Assembly (NCBI GenBank): GCA_027012955.1
Contig: JALUYL010000087.1
Coordinates: forward strand, 1 to 33,482
Reading direction: 5' to 3'
DNA from: Sulfurovum sp.
GTDB taxonomy: Bacteria; Campylobacterota; Campylobacteria; Campylobacterales; Sulfurovaceae
Length of the DNA stretch: 33,482 bases
A model generated the notes under the pieces. The model worked only from the letters and a program-made list of their open reading frames with translations. It ran no database searches and was not told the origin of the DNA. The translations under genes and the position numbers were made by a program. This document shows positions 2,044 through 12,934 of this stretch, piece after piece. The stretch's first letter is position 1. Each line of letters begins with the position of its first letter.

Positions 2044-4176
2044 TTATTTTGTTGTCATCTTCAGTATAGGACTAAATGTTTTTTCTGTGTCATCTAAGGC
2101 TTCTTCACAACGTTTCAAATACTGTATGTAAAGTGTACATGGGTAAAGTTCACAAAGCATTTCAAAAGCATTTTTAGCTTCTATCAGTTGTGCATTTTGA
2201 TACGCTTCAAAAGCAGTAAGGTAAAGTGTTGACTCTTCTGTCTCAATGTTTTTTGTATTGCAAATAACTTCATAGATCTTTACAGCGTTACTTTTACCTT
2301 TTACTGCGACTGTATCTATGGGGCGTATGTTGTAAGTACCTGTAAGTGCCTGTAAGGTCGCTTCTGAGATAAGAATCTGTACATCATAGTGTCTGGTGAG
2401 ACCTTCGAGTCTGGAAGCAAGGTTGACATTGTCTCCGATGACTGTATAGTCAGAACGTCCTTTAGCACCCATGTCTCCTGCCGTGACAAGCCCTGTATGT
2501 AAGCCTATACCAATGTTGATAGTCACATTGTATTTTGCAGTAATAACAGCATTAATTTGGGCAAGGCTTTCTATCTGCGCTATGGCACTTTGTACGGCTT
2601 TATCTGCATGCTTTGGTACTGCAAGAGGTGCATTCCAATACGCCATAATGGCATCACCAATAAACTTATCGATAGTACCTTGATGGTCTATAATACTCTC
2701 TACCATAGGTGTCATATATGTGTTGAGCATTTCGATTAGTTTGACGGGTGAGCCTAGTGTTTCGGAGATGGAGGTAAACCCTTTGATGTCTGAAAAAAAG
2801 ACAGTGGATTCTACTTCTTTTGGGTTGACTAACTCTTCACTTGCATGCTTGATAAGGTGATTCATGACAGAGGTCGAAACTTTTTTACCGAGTATCTTTT
2901 TGGCTTCTTCTTTTTGCTTAAATGAAACCATATAGTCTATGGCAACAGAACTGATGAGTGTGAGAAGAAAAGCCAAAAGTGGGAACAGTAGATTTAGCAC
3001 CAATCCATAGCTAAAAAGTAGCGTAAAAAAGAGAGTACCCAAACCATAAAGGACAAGAAGTGCCACTGGTAAGATAAGCCATGAGCGTAAGGTGTGCCAT
3101 AAAAGCATAAATGCAATGATTAGCATCCATAATATGCTGAGATTGTAGAGTACCGCATTGTGTGGTTGCGCAAGGAAATCTTTGCTGAGAAGATTATCAA
3201 TGACATTGGCATGTATCTCAACCCCCGGGATATTATTATCAAAAGGAATAGCCCTTAAATCATACAGTCCTAACGCAGAGGTACCAACCAATACAAATTT
3301 ATCTTTAAGGGCATTGGTTGGTACTTTATGGGTCAATATATTTTTTGCTGAGATGTAGGTGTAGTGATGTTTAGGTCCTCTAAAGTTGATAAAGAGACGA
3401 CCAAAATTATCGATAGGTATGTGGTATGACTCAAAGTCCATACTTTCTATGCTAAAGGCATTTCCTTGGACGGTAATTTTATTGACATTGCTATAGATGC
3501 GTACCATTTCTAGTGCAAGAGAGGTGTATAGAGTATGGTCATACTTCATAATGAGAGGTACACTGCGTATCATACCATTGGCATCGGGAATGTTATTGAA
3601 AAAACCACTTGAATAGAGTGATTCCTGTAGTATAGGTATGTTTAATATCGTACTGCTTGGTGTGAGTAAACTATGGTTGTCTTTTAGTCCTTTTTGTATG
3701 ATGATAGCAGGGATGAGGGGTGCTTCATTTTGTATTTTTGTTTTATCGAAGGTAAAGAGATATCCACCTACTATGGGTGCTGTTTGAAAGGTTTGGGCTA
3801 AAATGGCATCATTGTTAGGTAATGTCTTTGGAAGATTTGAAAATTTTTGTGAGAGCAGATGGGGGGAAGCTCTGTCTGCTTCTGAAAAAATGATATCCAA
3901 TCCTATGATGCCTGGTTGTAAAGCGTTAATGTTTTGAAAAAGTTGGGAGACTAGATCACGACTCCATGGCCATTGTCCATAGGCTTTGAGTGAAGCATCA
4001 TCTATATCTACAATGACAATAGAGTCATTTTTAGGCAGTTCACCTCTAATCACAAACATAAAATCACGTAAACGATTGTCAAGAGAGAAAAAGGTTTGTG
4101 GCGTAAAAAGATACGCCCAAGAAAGAAAGAAGGCTAACCCAAAGGTACTAAATAGTTTTAGTAAGTTGGCTTTCAT
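2044..4176 (-). CDS. CHASE2-domain membrane adenylate cyclase (class III)
   Basis: 710-residue inner-membrane sensor cyclase making cAMP from ATP. One N-terminal membrane helix (about 5-25) leads into an extracytoplasmic CHASE2 domain (about 30-335), then three helices (about 342-415) and a cytoplasmic class III cyclase domain (about 455-640). Catalytic residues are in place: metal-binding D463 (FFSDIKGFTS) and D508 (FIGDAIMAYW), adenine-selecting K504 and D576 (SDYTVIGDN), and transition-state N585 and R589 (NVNLASRLEG). The Lys/Asp pair favours ATP over GTP. The tail after 650 is helical and TPR-like. It is the last gene of a minus operon, 5 nt after the FecR gene, so the periplasmic partner may feed its CHASE2 sensor (inference). 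Confidence 0.93.
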   Translation of the reverse strand: MKANLLKLFSTFGLAFFLSWAYLFTPQTFFSLDNRLRDFMFVIRGELPKNDSIVIVDIDDASLKAYGQWPWSRDLVSQLFQNINALQPGIIGLDIIFSEADRASPHLLSQKFSNLPKTLPNNDAILAQTFQTAPIVGGYLFTFDKTKIQNEAPLIPAIIIQKGLKDNHSLLTPSSTILNIPILQESLYSSGFFNNIPDANGMIRSVPLIMKYDHTLYTSLALEMVRIYSNVNKITVQGNAFSIESMDFESYHIPIDNFGRLFINFRGPKHHYTYISAKNILTHKVPTNALKDKFVLVGTSALGLYDLRAIPFDNNIPGVEIHANVIDNLLSKDFLAQPHNAVLYNLSILWMLIIAFMLLWHTLRSWLILPVALLVLYGLGTLFFTLLFSYGLVLNLLFPLLAFLLTLISSVAIDYMVSFKQKEEAKKILGKKVSTSVMNHLIKHASEELVNPKEVESTVFFSDIKGFTSISETLGSPVKLIEMLNTYMTPMVESIIDHQGTIDKFIGDAIMAYWNAPLAVPKHADKAVQSAIAQIESLAQINAVITAKYNVTINIGIGLHTGLVTAGDMGAKGRSDYTVIGDNVNLASRLEGLTRHYDVQILISEATLQALTGTYNIRPIDTVAVKGKSNAVKIYEVICNTKNIETEESTLYLTAFEAYQNAQLIEAKNAFEMLCELYPCTLYIQYLKRCEEALDDTEKTFSPILKMTTK

Positions 4177-4181
4177 TATGG

Positions 4182-4823
4182 CTATGGATAATTAGCATAC
4201 GGGTTAAGTTGCACAGCAGGTATTTTTCCTGTTGGTGGTACTAACTCTTGTATATCTGAAACATCATAAATTTTTGGTTTCAACTCTGCTTCATGAAGAG
4301 CACTTTTTTTATGTTTAAATTCAAAGCTTTCTCCTGCTTTTAAGTCTCTTATGTTTTCCCCAAATTTTACACGTATAGCACCAAAGTGACAAGTAAAACG
4401 TTCTACACCATCACGTTGTAAAACAGAGAAGTCTGTTCCTCTGATACCGATAGTGGCAGAAGACGTTTTAACTTGAAAACGCTCAGGGGCTATCTTGCCT
4501 ATGCGTCCTGTGACAGAACGAAAGAAACCACGGCTTGATTTCATATGTATGGTTGAGGCTTTTGTACCATCAAAGAAGTATTTGGTAAAAGAAAAGGAGG
4601 AGTTAGACCCTACTGTAATCACCGTTTCATCCTTTAACATAATTTGAGCACGTGTTTTCTCAGCAGTGGTGATAGTGTCTCCCTGCTTGAGTTCCATACC
4701 ATTACTTGCAGGCAGTTTTGTTTCTGCTCTGTGTATGGTTGCTGTGCCTTTGAGTGCCATAATGTTCCCAATATTGGCAAAGATGCTACTGCTTATAGCA
4801 AATAGTAGTAAGAGGTATTTCAT
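4182..4823 (-). CDS. Secreted FecR-domain protein
   Basis: 213 residues with an N-terminal signal peptide (about 1-16, MKYLLLLFAISSSIFA) and a FecR domain from about 20 to 140. Typical FecR features are visible: LKQGDTITT, an AQIMLKDETVITVGSNSSF stretch and KTSSATIGIRGTDFSV. It is therefore predicted to be periplasmic. FecR domains occur in transmembrane signalling, and in stand-alone form they often accompany CHASE2 cyclases and TPR/barrel proteins, as here. It sits 13 nt after the outer-membrane protein gene and 5 nt before the cyclase gene. A GGAGAG ribosome site precedes the ATG. Its ligand is not visible. Confidence 0.85.
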   Translation of the reverse strand: MKYLLLLFAISSSIFANIGNIMALKGTATIHRAETKLPASNGMELKQGDTITTAEKTRAQIMLKDETVITVGSNSSFSFTKYFFDGTKASTIHMKSSRGFFRSVTGRIGKIAPERFQVKTSSATIGIRGTDFSVLQRDGVERFTCHFGAIRVKFGENIRDLKAGESFEFKHKKSALHEAELKPKIYDVSDIQELVPPTGKIPAVQLNPYANYP

Positions 4824-4836
4824 TTTCTCTCCTTCA

Positions 4837-6054
4837 TTAGTAAGTGAACTCTACACCAAACATCATAACATTTTTGCTATATTTGATAGGTGCATAGTTT
4901 GAATTGTTTTTTGCATAGGTATCGCGAAGATACAGTGCATATTTCTTTGACATGTCATAGGTTAGTTTTACATCAATCTGATTAAAATCATCTTTTCTAG
5001 TATTACTGTTAGGGAGTATTAAAGTACCAATATTATCACTATAATCACCATAACGGTATAGGTAGCTCAAGTCCATAAAGAGTTTGGGTGTAAAATGATG
5101 TTGGATACTGGTATCAAAACGAAAAAATTTGGCATCGAGAAATTTGTTATGCACATTTTGGTCTGAGGTTCGCTTCTCATACTGTAAGTGTAAAGAAACT
5201 TTATCTCCATAGAGTGGGAAGTAAAGACCAGCTCCTAATCCTAAGGTATTTGCATCGTTCACGTTATCTACAGCATCTACATAGGCTCTTTGAATATAAA
5301 GTGCATTAATGTCTAAAAGTGCACTCTCCCAAACAGGCAATGTAATGTGGGGTAAAAATTGGTAGTGTTCTAAAAGATTTTTGTCTAAATAGTGTGTGGC
5401 GTTATAGCGTAGAGGTAAGTAAAGTCTGTAACTGTCATTTTCATACCCTATGCCTACTTCCATAGTGGCTACACGCAAGTCATACAAGTGTGCTGAAAAA
5501 TTGCTTTGATCATAGAAGTCCAAAACTCCTTTCGCAAACCAACCTTCATAGTCTTCAAAATAATAGGTATATGCCATATTGGCACTAAAACGAAGAAACC
5601 GAGAACCAATCTTCCCTTGACTGCCTATAATACCAAAATAGTTATCTAGCGCATCTCCACCAGGATTGACATTGATATTGTCATCATAGCCTAAAGCGAC
5701 ATTGGCACGAATTTTAAGGGCATCACTGCGTACATTTTCATCAAAAGAGATATCAAGATTACTTCTGTTTGATTTTGTATAAATCGCTTCAAGTGCACTT
5801 TGTGCTTCTTGATTGTCAGCATCTAAGATAAGTACACGTTCATATGCACTCATGGCTTCTTCTGTCTTACCAAGCTTTTGTGCACTTTTTGCCCAAAGTA
5901 GGTGTAACTTAGGATTATCGTACGACTTAAAAGAGTGTTTCCCCTCTTTTAATGCCTGTGTGTATTGTCCAGCATTGTAGTACTGTAGCATCTGTGTGTA
6001 GCTCGCTTGAAGCATAAGACTTAAAGAGAGTATGGTAAAGAGTATTTTTATCAT
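4837..6054 (-). CDS. TPR plus outer-membrane beta-barrel protein
   Basis: 405 residues: signal peptide (about 1-17), two TPR-like helical repeats (about 20-95; YYNAGQYTQALKEGK and LGKTEEAMSAYERVL), then a long region of alternating polar and aromatic residues ending in FGVEFTY. That terminal aromatic motif is typical of outer-membrane barrels. The layout resembles SLAM/DUF560-type TPR-barrel proteins, but I cannot name a family with certainty. It is the first gene of the operon with FecR and the adenylate cyclase; AAAGGAG lies just upstream of the ATG. A three-part envelope path, outer membrane to FecR to CHASE2, is inferred from gene order only. Confidence 0.75.
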   Translation of the reverse strand: MIKILFTILSLSLMLQASYTQMLQYYNAGQYTQALKEGKHSFKSYDNPKLHLLWAKSAQKLGKTEEAMSAYERVLILDADNQEAQSALEAIYTKSNRSNLDISFDENVRSDALKIRANVALGYDDNINVNPGGDALDNYFGIIGSQGKIGSRFLRFSANMAYTYYFEDYEGWFAKGVLDFYDQSNFSAHLYDLRVATMEVGIGYENDSYRLYLPLRYNATHYLDKNLLEHYQFLPHITLPVWESALLDINALYIQRAYVDAVDNVNDANTLGLGAGLYFPLYGDKVSLHLQYEKRTSDQNVHNKFLDAKFFRFDTSIQHHFTPKLFMDLSYLYRYGDYSDNIGTLILPNSNTRKDDFNQIDVKLTYDMSKKYALYLRDTYAKNNSNYAPIKYSKNVMMFGVEFTY

Positions 6055-6170: not shown

Positions 6171-6650
6171 ATGACAGATAATACCTATGCCAATTTGGCA
6201 GCTTTTGGGAAGAAACTACTTAACGCCACAGGGCTTGAAGAGGGCTTACCGCTTATCGCCAATTATGCCTGCAATATTATAAATGCAGAACGATGTTCTA
6301 TTTTTGTGTATGACAAAGCTACGGGTGAACTTTGGACGACTTTGGCAGATGGCATTGAACGTATTGTTATTGATGCAGATAAAGGCGTGGTAGGGCAGGC
6401 TTTGAAAATACGAGAAGTTGTGGTAGAAAATGATATTGAAAAAAGTCTTTATTTTTTAGATACAGTCGATAAAAGTAGTGGCTTTAAAACCAAAAATCTC
6501 ATAGTAGCACCTATTTTTGATGAAAAGAAAAAAATCATAGGGGCACTAGAACTACTCAATAAACCTGAAGATTTTACAGCTTCAGATGCTAAGTTTATGG
6601 TCTTTTTCGCAAACTTTATTAGTTCGTTTATCGATTTGGCACGAAGGTAG
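6171..6650 (+). CDS. Stand-alone GAF domain protein
   Basis: 159 residues, essentially one GAF domain (about 5-155): ERCSIFVYDKATGELWTTLA, then DADKGVVGQA and LLNKPEDFTASD. The NK...F..D pattern is shared with cyclic-nucleotide-binding GAF domains, but is not proof of binding. It closely resembles the GAF half of the HD-GYP protein at 165 (RCSI, LWT, ADG.E, DA.KG.VG), which suggests paralogy. There is no output domain, so it is a small ligand-binding or partner protein. GGGAGAG precedes the ATG. It diverges from the cyclase operon, so it may report or buffer the same second messenger (inference). Confidence 0.85.
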   Translation: MTDNTYANLAAFGKKLLNATGLEEGLPLIANYACNIINAERCSIFVYDKATGELWTTLADGIERIVIDADKGVVGQALKIREVVVENDIEKSLYFLDTVDKSSGFKTKNLIVAPIFDEKKKIIGALELLNKPEDFTASDAKFMVFFANFISSFIDLARR

Positions 6651-6651
6651 A

Positions 6652-6744
6652 TGTTATGTGCCTAACTCTTTTGTGGTAGATGACGATATTGAGGTTGGTT
6701 TTGGAGCTAAGATTCCGTTGTGGTTATTTGGATTTTTATATTAA
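6652..6744 (+). pseudogene. Possible remnant of a hexapeptide acyltransferase N-terminus
   Basis: Without a start codon, the frame beginning at 6652 reads CYVPNSFVVDDDIEVGFGAK before losing similarity and stopping. This resembles the start of WbbJ-type left-handed beta-helix acetyltransferases (pattern Y.H.SSYVDD.VEIGEGTKIW). It is short and could be chance. No other gene is visible between the GAF gene and the DUF2164 gene. Confidence 0.22.
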
Positions 6745-6766
6745 ATGAAAAAGACGAAGGAAAAAG

Positions 6767-7024
6767 ATGTCACACATCACATTCACAGAAGATGAAAAAT
6801 CAACATTAGTAGATAAAGTTAAAAACTATTTTGAAAATGAACTTTTGCAGGAGATAGGGCAGTTTGATGCAGAGTTTTTGTTGGAGTTCTTTTCCAATGA
6901 GATAGGTGGGTACCATTATAACAAGGGGTTGAGGGATGCTCAAGATATTTTTAAAGAGAAAGTGGAGAGTATGACTGATGCTATTTATGAACTAGAAGTG
7001 CTTACTGAGTTTTCGGGTAAATAG
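6767..7024 (+). CDS. DUF2164 family protein
   Basis: 85 residues, full length for DUF2164. Conserved blocks are visible: a run of charged residues leading to VKNYFENELLQEIGQFDAEF, then FFSNEIGGYHYNKGLRDAQ. The family is widespread in Proteobacteria and has no known biochemical function; it is predicted cytoplasmic. GAAGGAAAA precedes the ATG. It stands 24 nt upstream of the TIR gene on the same strand and may be cotranscribed. DUF2164 genes usually occur in unrelated contexts, so I do not count it as part of the TIR system. Confidence 0.85.
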   Translation: MSHITFTEDEKSTLVDKVKNYFENELLQEIGQFDAEFLLEFFSNEIGGYHYNKGLRDAQDIFKEKVESMTDAIYELEVLTEFSGK

Positions 7025-7048
7025 GCTTTTTTAGATATACTTTACTTC

Positions 7049-8728
7049 ATGAACGAAACATACACATACAAAGCATTCATCAGCTACTCGCACAAAGACA
7101 AAGCCTTTGCTTCGTGGTTACAAAGAGGGATAGAGAACTATACTATTCCTCGTGCTTTGAGAGAGAAATATCCCCATCTTCCTACTGATTTAAAACGTAG
7201 CGTATTTAGAGATGAAGAAGAGCTTGCAGGGGCTAGTGCGCTTACACCTGTGCTTGAAAATGCACTTAAGACCTCTGAAAAGCTTATAGTCATTTGTTCT
7301 GTTGATTCTGTCATGTCTTCATGGGTTGAAAAAGAGATAGTCTTTTTTAAAGAAGTGCATGATGACAGTCATATCGTCAGTATTATCAAAGAGGGTGAGG
7401 TAAAAGAAGTACTTTCTAAAGCATTGAGAGAAGAGGGTGTTGAACCTTTGGCTATAGATGCTTCCATGGGACGAAAAAAAGCTTTGGTAAAAGTCATCGC
7501 TACGTTGCTTGGGGTAGATTTTCCAGAGCTGTGGGAGAGGGAGAAGAAAGAAGAAAGAAAGAGACTGTGGTTTAAGAGCATGATAGTGGTGACTTTTTTA
7601 CTTTTGGGTATCTATACGTATGTGCAGTATACGGCTATATCGTCCAACAAAGAGCTTGATGGCTTAAATACGCAGATATCGAAGATAGAGTATAGGCTTA
7701 AACGTAGTACGCTGAGTAAGGGCGAAGCGTATCGCTTGGGTGAGAGACTTAAAGTCCTTTCTGATATGAAAAAACGCAAGATAGACACCTTGAAATGGTT
7801 TGGTCTGTTTCATAGTTCTGTGGCTAAAAAAGCAAAAAAACTGTATGACAAAGGTGGTGTAGATGCAGCGCTTGCTTTGCTGGAATCATCGAAATCTGTA
7901 GCCGAAGATACCGTGTATGCGAAGAAAAATATGCTTCGGGCAAAGCTCTACATAGAAAAAAAAGATTATGCTGAAGCAACGCGCTTTTATGAAAAAGCTG
8001 TGATGGTGGATGCAAGCTATGAAAATGTGTATGATTATGTACTCTTTTTGATGCAAGAAAAGCAGATGAAAGAGGCTAAAGTGTGGTTGGAAACATTAAA
8101 AACATATGACCTGAAACCTGCTGAAAGTGCCAATGTACTTAACCGTTTGGGCATCGTTTATAGGCATTTAAAACGTTATGATGAAGCCAAAGAAATGTAT
8201 GCACAAGCATTGGCGCTACGTCAAGCACTAGCGCGTGAAAATCCTGACAAATATACCTTAGACTTAGCATGGACATACAATAATTTGGGTGTACTTTATA
8301 AAAAAATAAATGCACTCCATGAAGCCAAAGAGATGCATGAAAAAGCATTTTCATTGCGTAAGACTTTGGTAGAGAAAGATGCGAAAAAGTATACGTTTTA
8401 TGTGACATGTTCTATGCATAACTTAGGTGAACTCTACAGTAGTTTAAAGCAGACCGATGAAGCCAAAAAGTATTTTGAAGAGTCTATAAAGATACGCAGA
8501 AAGTTACTTACACAAAATCCTAAAAAGTACTTGCCTGCGTTGGCAACATCACTGAATGACTTGGCAAAACTTTATGTGGATACAAATAAACCTGACAAGG
8601 CTAGAGAGTTATATGAAGAGGCTTTAAGCTATAGGAAAACGTTGGCAAAAGAAAATCCACAGGCTTTTACTGCTGCATTAAAAGAGACACAAAAAGCCTT
8701 AGACACATTGGCTAAAGGAGTGCAGTAG
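7049..8728 (+). CDS. TIR domain, transmembrane helix and TPR repeat protein
   Basis: 559 residues. An N-terminal TIR_2-type domain (about 6-165) has the FISYSHKDK box, a VFRDEEELAGAS loop and SSWVEKEI; E96 aligns by motif with the catalytic glutamate of SARM1-type NAD-cleaving TIRs. A basic stretch (EREKKEERKRLWFK) precedes one membrane helix (about 175-194), then a coiled region, then at least five TPRs (about 265-550), the last four being 42-44-residue kinesin-light-chain-type repeats. This matches the bacterial class of TIR-TM-WD40/TPR proteins. Predicted role: membrane-anchored sensor that cleaves NAD or makes a nucleotide signal when its TPRs bind a trigger (inference). No strong ribosome site precedes the ATG. 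Its stop overlaps the next start by 1 nt. Confidence 0.9.
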   Translation: MNETYTYKAFISYSHKDKAFASWLQRGIENYTIPRALREKYPHLPTDLKRSVFRDEEELAGASALTPVLENALKTSEKLIVICSVDSVMSSWVEKEIVFFKEVHDDSHIVSIIKEGEVKEVLSKALREEGVEPLAIDASMGRKKALVKVIATLLGVDFPELWEREKKEERKRLWFKSMIVVTFLLLGIYTYVQYTAISSNKELDGLNTQISKIEYRLKRSTLSKGEAYRLGERLKVLSDMKKRKIDTLKWFGLFHSSVAKKAKKLYDKGGVDAALALLESSKSVAEDTVYAKKNMLRAKLYIEKKDYAEATRFYEKAVMVDASYENVYDYVLFLMQEKQMKEAKVWLETLKTYDLKPAESANVLNRLGIVYRHLKRYDEAKEMYAQALALRQALARENPDKYTLDLAWTYNNLGVLYKKINALHEAKEMHEKAFSLRKTLVEKDAKKYTFYVTCSMHNLGELYSSLKQTDEAKKYFEESIKIRRKLLTQNPKKYLPALATSLNDLAKLYVDTNKPDKARELYEEALSYRKTLAKENPQAFTAALKETQKALDTLAKGVQ

Positions 8729-9933
8729 TGCAGCATAAATTTCTTTTACGTTTTATCAAACAGGAGATGCAGAGGCAGAAAATAGCCTTTAAAAACAATG
8801 AAGATTTTTTTAGACTTTTTGTAAGCGATGAACCATGGGAGAGCTACAGGTCAAACATGAGTAACTGGCTTAGTAGTTCTGGCAAAGATGGGGTAATACA
8901 TAAACATACTTTTATAGAAGCAGTCAACGTAAAGCTAGGTCTTTCTAGTGAGATTTGGGGTGCCAGTGAATTAAAACAAAAAGAAGCTGTGGGAAAAGGT
9001 GTGAAAGCATATAAGAAGGCGTTGGAAGAGGATGCTTTTTCTTTCCCTTGGTTAGATGAAATAGGGCTTAGTCAAGAGCAAAAGATGTTTATAGATTTTG
9101 CTAAAAGGGCAAGTGTAGAAGATGTGGAAGATGCTATAAGTAGTATGGCAGACAGTCTCACCAAAACATCACAAAACCAACCTTTTCTCATAGCACTTTT
9201 TACGGTGATGTATGAAAAAGGAGCGTATGGGTTTGTCTATGCGCAGATTTTCCCACATTTGCTAGATACGTATGACAATACTATCAAAAGTAAAAAAGCA
9301 CATATCTATGCGTCACTGCCTACTCCTATGTATCGTGAAGCCTTTGATATATTGAGTTCTATTAAAGGGGAGAGTAAGGCTGATACTATGGACTTACGTA
9401 CGTCAGCCATCTCAAATATACGTAGAGAACGGCTTTCTTCTGCGGAGCTTAGTAAAGCGTCTTTAAAAGGTTTGCTTCAGACGCTCATAGGCAGTTACAA
9501 AAAGATATATGTGCCTAAAAATGACTATGGGTATTACCCTGCGGTCAATCTGGCTTATATGTTAGGCTTGGTAGCGTATATTTTCCCTCAAGATGTAGAG
9601 GTACTCTCACAAGGCTACAGCATAAGAGAACTCTATGTCGATGTGGAGAAATCGTTAGCTAAAGCCAAGGCATCTAACGATGATGTAACACGCTACTATG
9701 CTTCTATGAGTGAGATAGAGTTTCAACTTTTGTTAGGAACAAAAGGTATGGGACAAGAGCTAGAGATGGTGTTAGAAACACTACACCCCAGTGTCTATCT
9801 CATAGACCAAACACAACGGCAGATGGGTGTATTCTTTCTAGAAGTTGTCAAGCGTTATGATGGTGCAGTACTCGATACCTTTAAAGAAGTGTTAGACATC
9901 TTAGTAGCATATAAAGAAGCACGACATGACTAA
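8728..9933 (+). CDS. MAP3K TRAFs-binding (DUF4071)-like protein, TIR-associated
   Basis: 401 residues, GTG start with AAAGGAG 8 nt upstream, overlapping the TIR gene stop by one base (TAGTG). No membrane segment. The N-terminal 90 residues look like a small helical domain (FFRLFVSDEPWESYRSNMSN). The middle and C-terminal parts are alpha-helical. Residues 267-280 (YGYYPAVNLAYMLG) resemble the YYtGINaAt signature of the MAP3K TRAFs-binding domain, found in bacterial conflict proteins and animal ASK1-type kinases. Similarity is judged from this motif, so treat the family as probable. Its place between TIR and SLOG genes suggests an adaptor or sensor bridging them. Confidence 0.6.
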   Translation: MQHKFLLRFIKQEMQRQKIAFKNNEDFFRLFVSDEPWESYRSNMSNWLSSSGKDGVIHKHTFIEAVNVKLGLSSEIWGASELKQKEAVGKGVKAYKKALEEDAFSFPWLDEIGLSQEQKMFIDFAKRASVEDVEDAISSMADSLTKTSQNQPFLIALFTVMYEKGAYGFVYAQIFPHLLDTYDNTIKSKKAHIYASLPTPMYREAFDILSSIKGESKADTMDLRTSAISNIRRERLSSAELSKASLKGLLQTLIGSYKKIYVPKNDYGYYPAVNLAYMLGLVAYIFPQDVEVLSQGYSIRELYVDVEKSLAKAKASNDDVTRYYASMSEIEFQLLLGTKGMGQELEMVLETLHPSVYLIDQTQRQMGVFFLEVVKRYDGAVLDTFKEVLDILVAYKEARHD

Positions 9934-10423
9934 ATGTGTCGTAGCTGTGACAGGGCATCGAGATGTGCTAGAAAGTATAGTGCTAAAAAAAGAAATAGCA
10001 TCTTTTTTTGACGATATATTAGCGCGTTATGATGCAGTGACATTACTTTCTCCACTTGCCGAAGGTGCTGATACTTTGGTGGCAGAGATATTTTTACAAA
10101 GACAAGCAGATCATACGCATAGCAAACTAGAGGTACCTTTGCCACTTTCTAAAGTAGCGTATATGAAAACATTTTCAAAAGCATATCAAAAGCGTTTTGT
10201 CTCTTTGTTGGCGCAAGCAGATATCATTTTTGAAGTACCTAAAATCTGTGAACACTCTTTTGAAAATTTGGGTAGATATATGGTTACGCACAGCGATGTA
10301 CTCTTAGCCCTTTGGGATGGCATTGACAATGGACTGCAAGGGGGTACAGCAGATGTTGTGCGCTATGCAAAAAATTTAAAAAAGCCTATAACTCACATCA
10401 AAGTAACCCGTCAAAACCACTAA
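9926..10423 (+). CDS. SLOG-like (LOG/DprA superfamily) nucleotide-binding protein
   Basis: 165 residues. Rossmannoid pattern: AVTGHRD (7-13), LLSPLAEGADTLVAE (40-54), SDVLLALWDG (123-132) and GGTADVVRYA (139-148). The phosphate-binding GGT turn and the GHR start are hallmarks of SLOG-type proteins that bind or process nucleotide ligands. In Thoeris, a SLOG domain senses the nucleotide made by a TIR enzyme; that is family knowledge, and a parallel role here is inference. The ATG lies inside the preceding gene (8-nt overlap), so the three genes form one translationally coupled unit. There is no fused effector domain, so the output must come from another component or from enzymatic activity of this protein. 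Confidence 0.7.
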   Translation: MTKCVVAVTGHRDVLESIVLKKEIASFFDDILARYDAVTLLSPLAEGADTLVAEIFLQRQADHTHSKLEVPLPLSKVAYMKTFSKAYQKRFVSLLAQADIIFEVPKICEHSFENLGRYMVTHSDVLLALWDGIDNGLQGGTADVVRYAKNLKKPITHIKVTRQNH

Positions 10424-10503: not shown

Positions 10504-10965
10504 ATGAACAGAAGAAAAATCTTGACACTAAGTGTTATAGCAGCGTTGGCGATGCCTTTGAGTGTATGTGCTACAGATTATAGAGCTTCCAATGCTAAGG
10601 CATGGACAGCGAAGACGGTGAAAAGCGCTATACAAAGTTTATATGGTGATATTCACTTGACTAAAAGTGATGCGATTGACTTGAAAATGCCGAAGGTAAC
10701 TTCTAATGGTGGTGCAGTACCTGTGGGTATCTCTACTGCTATTGAGGCAAAAAGTGTTGCATTGTTTCAAGACTCAAACCCTGAAAGTGCAGTGGCTGTT
10801 TGGGCAGTACCTGAAGGCGGTATCATTGACTATAGGGTAAAACTTAAACTCAAAACATTAGAGAGTGGTTTGCCATCGAGAGTCATTGTCGTTGTGGAGG
10901 GAAAAGACGGAAAATATTACTCTACACATGCTTCAGTAAAAGTAGCAGGTGGCTGCGAAGGTTAA
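10504..10965 (+). CDS. SoxY-like sulfur carrier protein, exported
   Basis: 153 residues with an export signal (about 1-23; NRRKIL is weakly Tat-like, as in SoxY). The body follows the SoxY fold: a helical start, KMPKVTSNGGAVPVGIST, a middle AVWAVPEG strand, then VVVEGKDGKYYSTHASVKV. It ends GGCEG, with Cys151 in place of the Cys of the SoxY GGCGG swinging arm that carries thiosulfate-derived sulfur. Canonical SoxY pairs with SoxZ, but no soxZ or other sox gene is present in this window. AAAGGA precedes the ATG. The next gene carries a second copy of the same domain, so the role may be specialised rather than core thiosulfate oxidation. Confidence 0.8.
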   Translation: MNRRKILTLSVIAALAMPLSVCATDYRASNAKAWTAKTVKSAIQSLYGDIHLTKSDAIDLKMPKVTSNGGAVPVGISTAIEAKSVALFQDSNPESAVAVWAVPEGGIIDYRVKLKLKTLESGLPSRVIVVVEGKDGKYYSTHASVKVAGGCEG

Positions 10966-11030: not shown

Positions 11031-11053
11031 TAAAAATGTTAAAGGAGTACGAA

Positions 11054-12934
11054 ATGAGATTTATATTGATTATACTCATGCTATGGTGTAGTATGGGGCA
11101 TGCAGAAAACTACAGGATAACAAAAAGTGAAGCGTGGCGTGCCACAAGTGTTGAAGATGCCATTTTTCAGTTGTATGGTGCACAGCAGACGAGAGGAGAC
11201 AATCGTGTACTTATCTCTGCTCCGAAGCTAGCTAGTAATGGAGGGATGATACCTTTACAGGTAGAAACAAGTATAAAAGCAAAAAGTATTGCTATTTTAC
11301 AAGATGTAAATCCTAGCTCTTTGGTAACCGTGTTTAGCATCTTTCCTGGGAGTATACCTAAGTATGCATTGAGACTCAAAATGATTTCTTCAGGGAATAT
11401 CGTGGTGGTTGTAGAGGGGCTAGATGGTGTATTGTACAGCAACAGTTATCATGTGGAAGTGGCACTTGGTGGGTGTGAAGGTGGAGGCGATAGCTATTAT
11501 CCTGCATCGGCAAAGAGAAAAGTCCGTATACCATACAAACGTATGCAACAAGAAGCCTATAGTGTTATCAATGAAAAAGGATTTAGACAGACAAGTCTCT
11601 CGCCACTCTCTACATTTAGTACCGATGTTGATACTGCTTCTTATGCCAATATACGTCGTTATGTATTTGATACAAAAAGACTCCCACCAAAAGATGCAGT
11701 ACGTATAGAAGAGATGATTAATTATTTTGATTATGACTATGCTATGCCTACTGGAGAAGAACCTTTTGCCATCCATACAAGGGTAGGAAAGACACTTTGG
11801 AATAGTAAAACCAAACTAATTCAGATAGGGTTACAAACAAAAAAACTTGCTATAAAAAAATTACCTGAGAGTAATTTAGTTTTTTTACTTGATGTTTCAG
11901 GCTCTATGAACAGAGCAAACAAACTACCCTTGCTCACAAAGTCTTTAGCCCTTTTGGTAAGACAGTTACGAAGAGAAGACAGGGTGTCCATAGTCGTATA
12001 TGCAGGAAGTTCAGGGTTGGTGTTAGACAGAGCAAGAGGTGATGAAAAAGACAAAATACTCAATGCCCTGCGAAGCCTAAGAGCAGGTGGAAGTACAGCA
12101 GGGGCAAGTGGCATCTACCAAGCATATGAAGTCGCACAAAAAGCGTTTATAAAAGGTGGCAATAACAGAGTCATATTGGCAACAGATGGGGACTTTAATG
12201 TGGGTCAAACAAGCCAAAGGGAACTCACTGAACTCATAGAATCAAAACGTAAAAGTGGGATATACCTAAGTGTTCTTGGGTTTGGCACTGGAAACTATAA
12301 GGATGACAGGATGGAACGCCTTAGCAACCAAGGTAATGGAAACTACGCATATATAGACAGTTTACTCGAAGCCAAAAAAGTCTTGGTAACACAAATGAGT
12401 GGCACACTCTATACTGTAGCCAAAGATGTCAAAATACAAGTAGAGTTTAACCCTCTCAAAGTAAAACGATACAGACTTATAGGGTATGAAAACCGTCTTT
12501 TAAAAAGTGAAGATTTTAAAAATGATAAGGTTGATGCTGCTGAGGTTGGTATGGGACATTCAGTCACCGCACTTTATGAAGTGGAACTTTCAGATACAAA
12601 TATGACGTATGACAATGGACTAAAGTATCAAAAGAGTGTCTTGAGTGACTCTAATGAACTTGCAACAGTGAAGATACGCTATAAACTCCCAAAGAGCGAT
12701 AGCTCGGTCGAAATGCAGAAAAATATTGAGGTGGGAGATGGAGATATATCGGTAGAAGACTTTGGGTTTGTTCAGATAGTTGCAGGTTTTGGTATGTTGT
12801 TACGTGATTCTGCCTATAAACATACCCTAAATTATGCTACGCTTGTCACCGAAGCAAAAAAATATAAAGGCAAAGACGATGAAGGCTATAGAGCAGAGAT
12901 GATTAAAATGATGGAGAGTGTTTCTCTATATTAG
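11054..12934 (+). CDS. SoxY-like domain fused to a YfbK-type von Willebrand factor A protein
   Basis: 626 residues. Signal peptide about 1-17. Residues 18-143 repeat the SoxY-like domain of the preceding gene (SEAWRATSVEDAIFQLYG, SAPKLASNGGMIPLQVETS, VVVEGLDG) and end in GGCEGGG (C141), here internal. A linker (145-185) leads to the YfbK-family core: STFSTDVDTASYANIRRYV, EEMINYFDYDY, then a vWA domain with MIDAS D280-x-S282-x-S284 (FLLDVSGSMN), AGGSTAGASG and ILATDGDFNVG, and a DUF3520-like end. The ATG at 11054 is chosen for AAAGGAG 6 nt upstream and the immediate signal peptide; an ATG at 11036 lacks both. vWA/YfbK proteins bind partners through metal, so the likely role is an exported scaffold or binding partner bearing a sulfur-carrier Cys arm (inference). 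Confidence 0.88.
   Translation: MRFILIILMLWCSMGHAENYRITKSEAWRATSVEDAIFQLYGAQQTRGDNRVLISAPKLASNGGMIPLQVETSIKAKSIAILQDVNPSSLVTVFSIFPGSIPKYALRLKMISSGNIVVVVEGLDGVLYSNSYHVEVALGGCEGGGDSYYPASAKRKVRIPYKRMQQEAYSVINEKGFRQTSLSPLSTFSTDVDTASYANIRRYVFDTKRLPPKDAVRIEEMINYFDYDYAMPTGEEPFAIHTRVGKTLWNSKTKLIQIGLQTKKLAIKKLPESNLVFLLDVSGSMNRANKLPLLTKSLALLVRQLRREDRVSIVVYAGSSGLVLDRARGDEKDKILNALRSLRAGGSTAGASGIYQAYEVAQKAFIKGGNNRVILATDGDFNVGQTSQRELTELIESKRKSGIYLSVLGFGTGNYKDDRMERLSNQGNGNYAYIDSLLEAKKVLVTQMSGTLYTVAKDVKIQVEFNPLKVKRYRLIGYENRLLKSEDFKNDKVDAAEVGMGHSVTALYEVELSDTNMTYDNGLKYQKSVLSDSNELATVKIRYKLPKSDSSVEMQKNIEVGDGDISVEDFGFVQIVAGFGMLLRDSAYKHTLNYATLVTEAKKYKGKDDEGYRAEMIKMMESVSLY

Follow-up and report, generated by a model that had tools for sequence, protein, structure and literature searches.

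Three overlapping genes and their protein families

The locus described here lies in a window of 33,482 nt from the sulfur-oxidising bacterium Sulfurovum sp. (GenBank assembly GCA_027012955.1, contig JALUYL010000087.1), the window being contig C87 of a fragmented genome (G000) that is 76% complete. Three intact open reading frames (ORFs) of 559, 401 and 165 aa stand in a row on the + strand, at positions 7049–8728, 8728–9933 and 9926–10423, adjacent ones overlapping by 1 nt (8728) and then by 8 nt (9926–9933); the 401-aa ORF starts with GTG. They encode a protein with a TIR domain, a transmembrane (TM) segment and tetratricopeptide repeats (TPRs), a protein resembling the TPR-S/MAP3K TRAFs-binding family, and a stand-alone SLOG protein of the YpsA clade. 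Base shuffling of the stretch, repeated 200 times, gave a longest open frame of 103 aa on average and 196 aa at most; because the 559- and 401-aa ORFs are above this maximum, they are real on length alone, and the reality of the 165-aa ORF rests on homologues and fold. A sequence-only reading of the stretch had placed a TIR, TRAFs-binding-like and SLOG system here, and the ORF check reproduced its coordinates and both overlaps.

In the 559-aa protein (7049–8728), the TIR domain starts from about residue 8 (Pfam 10–115) and the TPR repeats span about residues 290–545. Pfam scored TIR_2 at 35.5 bits (cut-off 28), ThsB_TIR at 33.8 bits (cut-off 21.2) and many TPR models, and the TIR models over their cut-offs bear out the earlier family call. 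Glu96, named earlier as the WVxKE glutamate, does sit in such a motif, WVEKE. This glutamate was conserved in 24/24 rows of a TIR alignment (A3: 21 of the 46 database matches, the window, L012 and L044), and a hydrophobic 19-mer within residues 173–197 held the same position in all 24 rows, the window included; some of the matches left out of A3 have no TIR domain in the precomputed domain annotation. Among solved structures, the TIR part is closest in sequence to plant TIRs, with weak matches (best E 0.095), and in these alignments Glu96 falls under their conserved glutamate. The conserved glutamate of plant TIRs is catalytic. Judging from the sequence, the protein may cleave NAD+ (nicotinamide adenine dinucleotide) through Glu96. 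The ThsB models of PADLOC gave no match to it at E up to 0.1, although the Pfam ThsB_TIR model passes its cut-off.

The 401-aa protein (8728–9933) consists of an N-terminal helical domain (residues ~1–100), which is possibly helix-turn-helix (HTH)-like on weak evidence and had been overlooked in the sequence-only reading, followed by helical repeats (~113–401). Its own score with the Pfam TPR-S model (PF20308, Tetratricopeptide Repeats-Sensor) is 14.3 bits, under the cut-off of 27.6, and it was not among the matches of a PF20308 genome search; of the 20 members of profile A1 (16 of 59 TPR-S database matches plus four loci), the model matched 12 at E up to 1. At the level of the family, however, comparison of profile A4 with A5, built from TPR-S members over the Pfam cut-off, gave a probability of 97.1 (E 7e-11), against 0.3 for a TIR-TPR profile and 0.1 for a single TPR protein as negative controls. 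Seven of the eight A5 rows passed the cut-off in the protein scan, and the eighth, L073, in the genome search. By these family-level tests rather than by its own score, the protein is assigned to the TPR-S/MAP3K TRAFs-binding family, and it represents a divergent TPR-S subfamily. A generic TPR protein, considered as the identity of the second gene, was ruled out by the negative controls.

The predicted structure of this protein has the fold of the central regulatory region of the animal kinase ASK1, in agreement with the TRAFs-binding-like assignment made earlier; the YYPAVNLAY motif noted then is present. A sequence search of the PDB at E up to 10 returned nothing for it, either alone or as the A1 profile, nor for its relative L011, and the link to ASK1 needs either the fold or an intermediate, L070. 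The latter, a bacterial protein at 6628–7935 of its locus (G416:C63), matches MAP3K TRAFs-binding at E 1e-47 and is directly similar to human ASK1 (E 1.4e-8); its alignment with A4 by hhalign is weak (probability 36.2, E 3.7e-4). By eye the N-terminal part of L070 appears DrHyd-like, which Pfam did not confirm. Absence of a family from the fold lists does not exclude that family. Pfam gave the 401-aa protein no kinase match (E up to 0.1), which speaks against an ASK-type kinase. A further reading is a regulator cassette, in which the second protein would control the operon as a one-component regulator of HTH-TPR build and RRNPP style, with TIR and SLOG as accessories. This is highly improbable, since none of the matches behind it reached its cut-off or occurred in the window protein, ASK1 ranked above Rap, and the profiles tie the protein to TPR-S.

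For the 165-aa protein (9926–10423), Pfam YpsA gave E 1.7e-5 and 25.3 bits, just under the cut-off of 27.7, and the precomputed domain annotation lists PF06908. It has a clear fold match to Bacillus subtilis YpsA and carries the GH, GAD and GGT motifs; its fold is also related to the SLOG domain of ThsA bound to the cyclic ADP-ribose (cADPR) isomer 3′cADPR (7uxs). Structure prediction thus agrees with the SLOG family that had been named from the sequence, and both sequence and model suggest that the protein could bind a nucleotide. The fold and motifs are shared with YpsA and other SLOG proteins (DprA, LOG), from which it differs in gene context; a role of YpsA in cell division of Gram-positives has been reported (PMC6459960). 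Two further papers state that the YpsA-like clade of SLOGs includes cADPR sensors, with TIR, DrHyd and SLOG grouped in one clade (PMC9503650), and that in other conflict systems the TIR-DrHyd-SLOG fold was predicted to produce a second messenger (PMC7159879). No second domain, and hence no fused effector, was found on the 165-aa protein.

Recurrence of the triad and exchange of its third partner

Among 175 genomes of the family, profile A1 matched 13 (15 places), indicating a patchy presence, SLOG matches (profile A2: 22 of 42 database matches plus six loci) occurred in 10 (12 places), and TIR-TPR matches in five, one of them through TPRs only; G152, matched over the TPR part only, was not counted for TIR. 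The full triad, in the same order and with overlaps, was present in three of the 175, namely G000, G009 (L013) and G134 (L012). A SLOG gene lay within 2 kb of TPR-S at 6 of the 15 TPR-S places, which is also 6 of the 12 SLOG places; the expected number of such pairs was about 0.03. In a large protein database, which listed 59 TPR-S, 42 SLOG and 46 TIR proteins, TPR-S and TIR shared 18 contigs, TPR-S and SLOG eight (one being the window) and SLOG and TIR eight, against about 0.1 each after jitter, and four contigs, of lengths 4732, 5642, 9634 and 9786, appear common to all three lists; contig sharing was judged here from equal length and shared source, the contigs themselves being unread, and the expectation came from jittered lengths. 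With the triad in three genomes and shared contigs above expectation, the co-occurrence of the three genes anticipated from the window extends to other genomes.

Across 398 genomes of the order, with at most four candidates scored per genome, A1 matched eight, G000 and G009 at 586–602 bits and the next best at 397 bits. A phylum-wide search with PF20308 at E 0.001 found 56 of 397 genomes, 19 over cut-off, compared with 5 of 14 controls, one over cut-off. No DNA on viral contigs matched patterns of the 401-aa protein, and plasmids yielded no match for this protein or for L011. A report on an Arcobacter plasmid mentions a DUF4071 gene with a DUF4062 gene about 9 kb away, and gives no function (PMC6690266).

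Twenty-four TPR-S genes were viewed in context, an uneven sample that combines matches of the A1 searches with the best ones to PF20308; for the latter, context was added from G416, G323, G518 and G373, the four new genomes whose E-values were strongest. SLOG adjoins eight of them (the window, L013, L012, L041, L015, L011, L021/L074 and L072), and the remaining 16, some of which lie at contig ends, lack an adjacent SLOG. A TIR gene lies beside or near eight of the 24 (the window, L013, L012, L041, L014, L015, L069 and L075), and its form differs: TIR-caspase in L041, a divergent TIR-AAA_35 in L014, two TIR genes on the opposite strand in L015, a TIR gene that has NTPase matches under cut-off and overlaps TPR-S in L069, and a TIR gene by Pfam in L075, the last two loci belonging to other TPR-S subfamilies. 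L041 (7267–11534, G201:C33) holds a TIR-caspase (Peptidase_C14) fusion, SLOG and TPR-S in a row, so that here the triad has another order and another effector. In L072 a DUF4062-STAND gene lies upstream of the SLOG/TPR-S pair, and in L011 (5042–15980, G015) the pair adjoins DUF4407, and nSTAND1-TPR and ThiF genes lie close by.

RyR or TrkA_N-RyR neighbours were recognised by Pfam in L010/L022 and L038 (RyR of L038 just under cut-off) and by similarity in L019 and L040, and DUF4062 neighbours by Pfam in L008/L016, L038 and L072 and by similarity in L009/L017 and L018. L038 (340–7901 of G000:C21:1-16000) contains a second TPR-S gene of the window genome, which faces TrkA_N-RyR and 1499-aa DUF4062-STAND proteins. 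SLOG genes without TPR-S were seen beside a DUF4062-like nSTAND1 protein in L045 (73–2957, G210:C171) and beside a RyR-like protein, by similarity, in L048 (448–2959, G186:C305).

A putative NAD-linked signalling cassette

We propose, with a probability of about 0.5, that the three genes form an NAD-linked signalling cassette, in which a SLOG/TPR-S signal pair controls a membrane TIR-TPR output that acts as an alarm or suicide switch. From the genes and folds we infer the following course. The three genes would be translationally coupled as one cassette; SLOG would bind or make an adenine- or NAD-derived nucleotide; the TPR-S protein, a scaffold that resembles the ASK1 regulatory repeats in build, would read the nucleotide state and relay it by contact to the membrane-anchored TIR-TPR protein, whose TIR domains would cluster on activation and cleave NAD+ via Glu96; and the loss of NAD+ would halt or kill the cell, most likely upon phage infection or other invasion. 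The TIR protein is placed at the output because SLOG and TPR-S stay together in eight loci while the third gene changes.

The same parts could be ordered as in Thoeris, the TIR protein sensing the invader via its TPRs and making a cyclic ADPR isomer, SLOG serving as receptor and TPR-S as adaptor or executor, perhaps by its N-terminal domain. The invariant Glu96, the ThsB_TIR match, the relation of the SLOG fold to ThsA and the TPRs that could serve as a sensor are all consistent with this order, which we nevertheless regard as doubtful: neither Pfam nor PADLOC found an effector domain on SLOG or TPR-S, and therefore the killing step is missing; besides, the gene that varies between loci is the third one, including the TIR-caspase fusion. 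The recurrence of SLOG/TPR-S with TIR-caspase, DUF4062-STAND and DUF4407 is more in keeping with a signal module that gates an effector which can be exchanged. The sequence-only reading had suggested a defence or suicide module distinct from Thoeris and running from a TIR sensor through an adaptor to a SLOG receptor; the distinction stands, as no effector is fused to SLOG, whereas the order is not favoured over the alternatives. Thoeris as a label was rejected on the lack of a ThsA-type fusion. The window shares with Thoeris (ThsA/ThsB) a TIR with a conserved glutamate and a SLOG domain, and differs from it in the SLOG standing alone, in the TM helix and TPRs of the TIR protein and in the third, TPR-S gene.

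Burroughs and Aravind reportedly predicted TPR-S systems in 2020, with TPR-S beside SLOG, TIR, RyR and DUF4062-STAND genes and reading NAD-derived signals. The cassette is a variant of this predicted kind, sharing the TPR-S scaffold beside SLOG and TIR genes and differing in three respects: its subfamily is divergent, the overlapping partner gene encodes a membrane TIR-TPR protein, and a SoxY gene is added downstream; the parts listed in the sequence-only reading are retained. From animal ASK1 (MAP3K5) it differs in that no kinase domain was found and that the partner of nucleotide-binding type is a separate SLOG protein. A search of the open-access literature found no title on such a triad and no experimental test of such a predicted system.

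Several observations weigh against the NAD-linked cassette as a defence switch. G058, which is 86% complete, has a TIR-TPR gene without a TPR-S or SLOG match, and SLOG lacks an adjacent TPR-S in 6 of its 12 places, some near contig ends. No recognised defence system was found near the triad (10 proteins against Pfam, seven against PADLOC) beyond the TIR protein's own weak matches; PADLOC returned nothing for the window TPR-S and only ShosA at E 0.048 for SLOG; of three TPR-S relatives, L038 alone had a match, a weak one to Csx26 (E 9e-4). In L016/L008, L017/L009, L018, L020/L043 and L042, TPR-S belongs to a conserved cluster that also holds genes for a histidine kinase, a response regulator and a FeeM protein (N-acyl amino acid synthase-like), recognised by Pfam in L017 and L020, both with a kinase of the 7TMR-DISM type, and by eye in the others. 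This context suggests regulation rather than immunity; L016, L017 and L018 also carry a convergent DUF4062-like gene. Finally, the SoxY gene behind the triad sits ill with a plain defence role.

The SoxY gene and the flanks

This gene (10504–10965, + strand), overlooked in the sequence-only reading, encodes a SoxY-like protein of 153 aa (Pfam SoxY, E 2e-18) with a signal-peptide-like start by eye and a C-terminal GGCEG, not GGCGG. It has a SoxY domain with the C-terminal cysteine motif, yet its 88.2 bits are under the NCBIfam true-SoxY cut-off of 125. A SoxY gene lies 3′ of SLOG in 3/3 triads, with gaps of 80, 75 and 77 nt, and each triad genome has another SoxY elsewhere (L051, L052 and L053), next to what by eye is a SoxZ-like ORF. 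The three triad SoxYs group together in trees, apart from nine core copies, with support of 82/89 and 84/86, which is below the level taken here as shown; the trees included five further core copies and G191 from the 111 genomes with SoxY, and the second omitted two SoxY-vWA rows. SoxY thus probably travels with the triad, though three cases cannot settle this. Promoter-like and terminator-like sites were no more frequent than in shuffles.

A sulfur- or redox-stress module, rather than immunity, would follow if the cassette and its own SoxY made growth stop, via NAD+, in response to thiosulfate oxidation status. The constant position of SoxY in the triads, though another copy exists in the same genomes, and the separate grouping of these copies speak for it, and oxidative stress triggers thioredoxin release from ASK1, thioredoxin altering the contact of the ASK1 thioredoxin-binding domain with the TPR region (PMC10972558). 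We consider it unlikely, as only three genomes are involved, the tree support is not decisive, and no SoxY was found beside the SLOG/TPR-S pairs in L011, L015, L021, L041 and L072; SoxY is moreover common in the family (111/175), and a chance neighbour is therefore easier to accept. Less probable still is a combination in which the SLOG/TPR-S pair would correspond, as two separate bacterial genes, to the sensor head of ASK1, where the thioredoxin-binding domain touches the TPR region. In Sulfurovum-type bacteria the pair and its own SoxY would then be tied to sulfur oxidation, and an ASK1-like oxidative or sulfur-stress signal would fire the membrane TIR NADase.

Downstream of SoxY, the window has a SoxY domain fused to a vWA/YfbK protein (11036–12934, + strand), L012 a SoxZ-like ORF by eye, and L013 neither. 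The SoxY-vWA gene is counted with the flank; a relative in G207, a genome that gave no TPR-S or TIR-TPR match, adjoins an interrupted SoxY and a SoxZ-like ORF. Upstream, 24 nt before the triad, a DUF2164 gene recognised by Pfam (6767–7024, + strand) recurs in L013 of G009 (79% identity) and is replaced by a PIN gene in L012 of G134; it is probably part of the flank rather than of the cassette. Genes for a CHASE2 cyclase, FecR and a TPR outer-membrane-like protein form one row on the − strand (2044–6054).

Sequence analysis has derived some components of the ASK signalosome from bacterial conflict systems (PMC8195603). ASK1 is a major animal stress kinase, and a compact bacterial cassette whose three overlapping genes supply an ASK1-like scaffold, a nucleotide-binding partner and a TIR output would make the proposal of a bacterial origin testable at the bench. 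The extra SoxY, if functional, would link an immunity-type module to energy metabolism.

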